Origin: a bacterium | GTDB lineage: Bacteria; SM23-31; JAUVVT01 | Assembly: GCA_030616165.1 (NCBI GenBank) | Contig: JAUWXV010000245.1 | Coordinates: 1 to 5,448 of the forward strand | Reading direction: 5' to 3' | DNA length: 5,448 nt | Shown here: piece by piece, positions 2,426-2,901 of the stretch | How positions within the stretch are numbered: the stretch's first letter is position 1 | Layout of the letters: every line of letters begins with the position of its first letter | The notes under the pieces: model-generated | The model's input: only the letters and a program-made list of their open reading frames with translations | Told to the model about the DNA's origin: nothing | Databases searched by the model: none | Position numbers and translations under genes: made by a program

Positions 2426-2839
2426 TCAAATTGATTTAATCCAATCTTCCTCTTCATCTGAAAGAATAATACCTTCGCTTTCTACATATTTAGCCGCGGT
2501 ACATGTACCATTTTCATCAAGATAAATCCCTTCCTTATTCATGCAACTGCTTTCAATATTAAAATCACAATTTGTATTATCACAATACAAAATTAATGTG
2601 ATAACCCCTCCATTAATAGACTCTTCTTCAAGTTTATTTCTTTTGAGTCCTGCTTCCATTTTCTTGTTTTTTAGACATAAATTGTATCTCTCGCATGAAT
2701 CACAGTCATATTCATCACAAATATTAATATTCTCACATGTGCCTGTAAAATCGAGGGTTACTTCACTAAGAAGGCATCTGTGGTTTAAATTATCGTCCTC
2801 GTAGCATTCTAAACAGTTGCAGCCAAAAATATTGCTCAT
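2426..2839 (-). CDS. Cysteine-rich protein with two DUF1540-like four-Cys modules
   Basis: I do not recognise this as a named gene. It encodes 137 residues with 13 cysteines, no signal peptide and no membrane segment, and an acidic C-terminus (SDEEEDWIKSI). The cysteines form three groups. Module 1 is C7-x4-C12-x9-C22-x12-C35, with an extra C9. A middle cluster is C41-x4-C46-x2-C49-x5-C55. After a charged linker (57-73), module 2 is C86-x4-C91-x7-C99-x13-C113. Modules 1 and 2 look like duplicates: both end in L-D-x-x-G-T-C after a similar spacing. Module 2, with C-D-x-x-x-C-x-F-N and a later I-x-L, resembles the DUF1540 family, whose function is unknown. Three metal sites (zinc or iron-sulphur) in the cytoplasm are plausible but inferred. 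The start is the ATG at 2837-2839, ten bases after a perfect AAGGAGG; a longer reading from TTG at 2872 would translate the ribosome site itself. It lies 62 bp behind archease on the same strand and is probably co-transcribed with it. Confidence 0.85.
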   Translation of the reverse strand: MSNIFGCNCLECYEDDNLNHRCLLSEVTLDFTGTCENINICDEYDCDSCERYNLCLKNKKMEAGLKRNKLEEESINGGVITLILYCDNTNCDFNIESSCMNKEGIYLDENGTCTAAKYVESEGIILSDEEEDWIKSI

Positions 2840-2849
2840 AATATCATAT

Positions 2850-2856
2850 CCTCCTT
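2850..2856 (-). promoter_or_regulatory. Ribosome binding site of the cysteine-rich gene
   Basis: The minus strand reads AAGGAGG, ten bases before the ATG at 2837-2839. It fixes the start at that ATG and argues that the ORF is a real gene, independently translated at good strength. Confidence 0.85.
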
Positions 2857-2901
2857 CTGATATTACAAACAAATATCCCTTATTTATTTATAATAGTTAA
2901 A

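Follow-up and report, generated by a model that had tools for sequence, protein, structure and literature searches.

A cysteine-rich bacterial protein that probably joins two DUF1540-related genes

The small cysteine-rich protein encoded at positions 2426-2839 of the window (the whole stretch of 5,448 nucleotides that was analysed) is a fusion variant of DUF1540 (PF07561), a known family that is functionally blank. Considering the taxonomic distribution of its parts, the simplest account is that the gene arose in the window's family by fusion of two neighbouring genes, one encoding modules 1 and 2 (N-type) and one encoding module 3 (C-type). Taken alone, the window protein is a modest finding. 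The gene comparison shows how a multi-cluster protein can arise by the joining of two single-purpose ones, and it extends the DUF1540 superfamily to lineages in which the Pfam model sees nothing. The features were as follows.

2426..2839, minus strand: whole gene, 137 aa, putatively fused N-type and C-type cysteine-cluster protein (open reading frame, composition, dN/dS)
2849..2857 (approximate), minus strand: Shine-Dalgarno AGAAGGAGG, about 10 nt before the ATG
2735..2821, minus strand: module 1, residues 7-35, C-x4-C-x9-C-x12-C, DUF1540-like by profile-profile comparison, Cys-preserving shuffles and the N-family genome search
2675..2719, minus strand: module 2, residues 41-55, C-x4-C-x2-C-x5-C, not DUF1540-like, invariant in all intact N-type relatives
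2585..2674, minus strand: linker, residues 56-85, site of the G001 frame change and inferred fusion site (alignment)
2501..2584, minus strand: module 3, residues 86-113, C-x4-C-x7-C-x13-C, DUF1540-like by profile comparison, a separate gene in G004

The reading frame starts with ATG, preceded by AGAAGGAGG with 10 nt between GGAGG and the start codon. It follows the archease stop codon after a gap of 62 nt, gyrA also lies upstream, and parA and parB lie further downstream on the same strand. The nearest relative, G001 (JAUVVT01, L018), belongs to the same family and has the same gene order. Between the two genes (NG86), dN was approximately 0.12 in the N half and 0.11 in the C half, while dS exceeded 1. 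The window gene is thus under purifying selection, and this low dN relative to dS indicates that both halves are kept as protein. The sequence-only reading had argued for a real gene from the Shine-Dalgarno and the operon position. The gene is real, as its open frame, Shine-Dalgarno, conservation and low dN/dS agree, but the operon argument is weak, because the gyrA-archease neighbourhood was common to the window and G001 only.

That reading had also listed 13 cysteines with three tetracysteine spacings, and all of these were as described: the residues are 7, 9, 12, 22, 35, 41, 46, 49, 55, 86, 91, 99 and 113. Cysteine made up 9.5% of the protein, compared with 0.77% in four neighbouring proteins (binomial P for at least 13, 7e-11). 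Modules 1 and 3 do share the L-D-x-x-G-T-C ending, as LDFTGTC and LDENGTC. The conserved plan consists of 12 cysteines and not 13, since both G002 and G004 have Y at the position of C9. The eight cysteines of modules 1 and 2 were invariant in all 18 intact N-type sequences, which span two phylum-level groups, and so were G33, E36, K57 and K59 (window numbering); the four of module 3 were invariant in three C-type sequences. Module 2 is flanked by aromatic and acidic residues.

The relationship to DUF1540 was investigated with hhalign, by comparing the module profiles with eight DUF1540 modules from genomes in which PF07561 exceeds its own cut-off (gathering cut-off, 22.1 bits); 200 permutations of all non-Cys columns served as the control. 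Modules 1 and 3 aligned with a score of 31.1 (shuffle maximum 22.6; 0 of 200), and the similarity between them that the earlier reading proposed to check was thus found. Module 1 aligned to DUF1540 with a score of 28.9 (maximum 18.0; 0 of 200) and module 3 with 26.1 (maximum 26.2; 1 of 200). Deeper DUF1540 sampling by class yielded only two more modules, both in a single protein encoded by a close relative of G090. In the reciprocal direction, the N-type family profile was run against 384 genomes. Beyond the Calditrichota-type phylum and the class of the window, it matched five loci, which lie in four genomes (E approximately 1e-3 to 2.5e-4). Both of the loci that were tested were DUF1540 above the Pfam cut-off, and one (G020) coincided with an earlier PF07561 match. 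These comparisons argue that the kinship between modules 1 and 3, and of both with DUF1540, goes beyond the spacing of their cysteines.

The Pfam DUF1540 model, the search proposed earlier for the separate pieces, gave no match at E up to 10 with the window protein, whether whole or in pieces, and it was not found in any N-type relative; the C half of G001 reached 12.0 bits (E 0.24), below the gathering cut-off. Because the model gave no match even at E 10, the window protein is best described as a distant relative of DUF1540 and not as a filed member. The shared element is a module of the form C-x4-C-x(6-9)-C-x4-[IV]-x-[VL]-...-C, with profile similarity beyond the cysteines, which DUF1540 proteins often carry twice in approximately 100 aa. 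The window protein differs in that the DUF1540 C-x-T-[FY] at the last cysteine is replaced by a G-T-C-E/T ending (GTCEN and GTCTA), and in its extra C-x4-C-x2-C-x5-C cluster and longer acidic linker. The DUF1540-type four-Cys spacing was present in modules 1 and 3 and absent from the middle cluster, which had no DUF1540 similarity. The initial description of a DUF1540-like part therefore held for modules 1 and 3, by Cys-preserving shuffles and reciprocal genome search, and failed for the middle cluster, if the "second" module meant that one. The same description had called a DUF1540-like pair enclosing another cluster unfamiliar; the pair is ordinary, as tandem DUF1540 proteins were common in the genomes searched, and the extra cluster is indeed unusual.

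Other searches gave little. No family in Pfam, NCBIfam or PHROGs exceeded its cut-off, for the whole protein or the modules apart, and the PDB sequence search gave no relevant match and no solved relative; a match to thrombomodulin (E 0.39) was taken as chance. Module 3 (protein residues 83-130) weakly matched phrog_4279 (E 0.008), a phage family of unknown function. No relatives were found among viral contigs or plasmids. AlphaFold2 models of the N-type and of the whole protein were of very low confidence (mean pLDDT 39.9 and 41.7).

Relatives were found in genome contigs by an alignment-based scan, whereas a single-protein scan found none. The first profile, over 386 diverse genomes, recovered only the known groups and one chance match inside an unrelated protein, and two further records, labelled Calditrichia, came from a profile scan of named genomes. 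Weak matches in L014, L017 and L047 were discarded because they fell within or spanned unrelated reading frames. Modules 1 and 2 form a stand-alone protein of 62-78 aa in 17 of the 40 Calditrichota-type genomes, including 14 of the 15 genomes of one family, as well as in G002 (labelled candidate division KSB1) and G004. The phylum, that of G348, is called Calditrichota-type because L021 and L022 carry this label and their sequences recur in G406 and G407. The C-type protein was not found in its 40 genomes. In G002 and G004 the N-type protein (63-68 aa) follows a large gene, which we take to be SprA-like from its sequence, not from a profile. G004 also has a separate 71-aa C-type gene, 5 kb further on and directly before parA; in this genome the N-type and C-type genes lie on the same strand as parA and have separate starts. 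The two types lie together only in G000 and G001. Since the N-type occurs widely alone, the C-type is separate in G004 and the joined form is confined to these two genomes, fusion appears the simplest origin.

The sequence-only reading had proposed internal duplication instead. A true duplication inside a single ancestral gene, from which fission later produced the separate genes of the relatives, would agree with the relatedness of modules 1 and 3 and with the origin of both fused-type genomes from one family. We consider it improbable: the widespread form is the N-type alone, the two G004 genes lie apart with starts of their own, and the similarity between modules 1 and 3 is about the same as that of either to DUF1540, so that recent duplication is not indicated. 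A possible trace of the fusion is GGAGG-N4-ATC, present in both fused-type genomes at the exact position of the ATG that starts the C-type gene of G004. It may be a relic of the second gene's start, but this is no more than suggestive; against it, GGAGG lies only 4 nt from ATC, and a clear Shine-Dalgarno is absent from the G004 gene.

The two halves of G001 are in different frames that overlap by 28 nt, with an A6 run at the break, and its lysine-rich linker is one base shorter than that of the window. Two overlapping genes or a frameshift read-through, with the fused frame of the window as an assembly accident, could produce this arrangement, yet such an explanation seems quite unlikely. No stop codon interrupts the window frame, and the second ATG of G001 lacks a Shine-Dalgarno. 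Read in the fused frame, the linkers remain alike before and after the break (EKKAEINLKDDEIEEE vs NKKMEAGLKRNKLEEE), and the simpler explanation is that G001 differs by a single base. The break is therefore most readily attributed to a one-base difference in an A-rich run, either real or from assembly.

The larger unannotated find is the stand-alone 78-aa N-type family, previously unnamed and defined here. Its gene lay directly 3' of a rhomboid gene on the same strand in all 19 loci checked (17 genomes; L021-L023 and L031-L046), and the linkage is seen in a complete single-contig genome, G348. Rhomboid and DUF6576 were identified by Pfam in one locus, and the DUF6576 tail occurs in L023. At these loci proS is often upstream, and a convergent gene, presumably GNAT-like, is often downstream. 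Like the window protein, the Calditrichota protein has module 1 and cluster 2, the eight invariant cysteines and an invariant K-x-K after the last of them; unlike it, it lacks the C-type module, ends in a conserved acidic/tyrosine tail (NEDYYNEDEY) and is linked to rhomboid instead of gyrA-archease. In L046 (1408-2345; G418, 62% complete), the N-type and the adjacent rhomboid gene are each split over two frames, probably by sequence errors. In L019, a reading frame at 6162-6659 overlaps the 3' end of the N-type gene; it presumably resembles only the C-terminal part of MnmA, and either a truncated gene or a chimeric contig would account for it.

The rhomboid linkage in G348 offers a place to test a DUF1540 function. 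The N-type family (residues 1-60 of the window protein) might represent a new, conserved module of these lineages with two metal sites, which possibly regulates the rhomboid protease in the cytosol or serves as its substrate adaptor. The window gene would then descend from this family and be joined to a second DUF1540-like protein instead. To this reading as a whole we attach only slight probability. No partner gene was common to all lineages, and context therefore does not give the function.

With moderate confidence, we propose that two formerly separate genes, N-type and C-type, were joined into one whose product would be a compact cytosolic binding or adaptor module. The N-type part would contribute one DUF1540-like tetracysteine module followed by the C-x4-C-x2-C-x5-C cluster, and the C-type part one further module of the DUF1540-like kind. 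In each tetracysteine group a single structural metal ion, probably Zn2+, is most likely bound and would stabilise a fold too small for a hydrophobic core. The existence and conservation of the gene, the kinship of its modules and the occurrence of separate genes in relatives are shown by the data, whereas metal binding, the identity of the metal, the cytosolic location and the adaptor role are all steps that we infer. The evidence for the probable metal binding is the invariant cysteines. Structural zinc in a cytosolic adaptor was judged likeliest because 12 invariant cysteines fall into three groups of four, the composition is acidic (29 D/E, 11 K/R) and the window protein has no evident signal peptide or membrane segment, for which reason it is probably cytosolic.

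The middle group, being invariant and next to aromatic and acidic residues, could also point to iron (rubredoxin-like Fe or Fe-S) and to a small electron carrier or redox sensor. This is unlikely, though less so than the other alternatives: ferredoxin, rubredoxin and other Fe-S families in Pfam and NCBIfam gave no match at E up to 10, no redox partner gene adjoins, and we know of no Fe-S motif with the spacing of the middle cluster. A structural protein whose cysteines form disulphides or cross-links, as has been suggested for spore-surface cysteine-rich proteins such as CdeA, was considered as well. CdeA of Clostridioides difficile, likened here by description, is small, cysteine-rich and carries a DUF1540 domain, and it differs in being a protein of the exosporium, the spore surface (PMC7677010, PMC6101409). 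It was the one DUF1540 protein for which our literature search turned up a published localisation. This location could favour disulphide cross-linking over metal, and on spores CdeA migrates as species of 19 and 47 kDa (PMC6101409). Against such cross-linking, which we regard as doubtful here, no signal peptide was evident in any relative. To our knowledge, the host phyla are not spore formers either. The single-transmembrane type of DUF1540 protein described at the cydX position in Firmicutes (PMC5322542) does not fit the window family. Our literature search found no function assigned to DUF1540, and structural metal in a cytosolic adaptor stays our preferred reading.

Two repeats lie elsewhere in the window. 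A perfect 34-nt palindrome (TTGTAATTCCCCCGAGT/ACTCGGGGGAATTACAA) occupies 1661-1694, in the 1.1-kb gap before parA, and an imperfect inverted repeat at 1731-1824, possibly a dispersed fold-back element, encloses a 13-nt tandem repeat (GCTTGTCCTTYGG).
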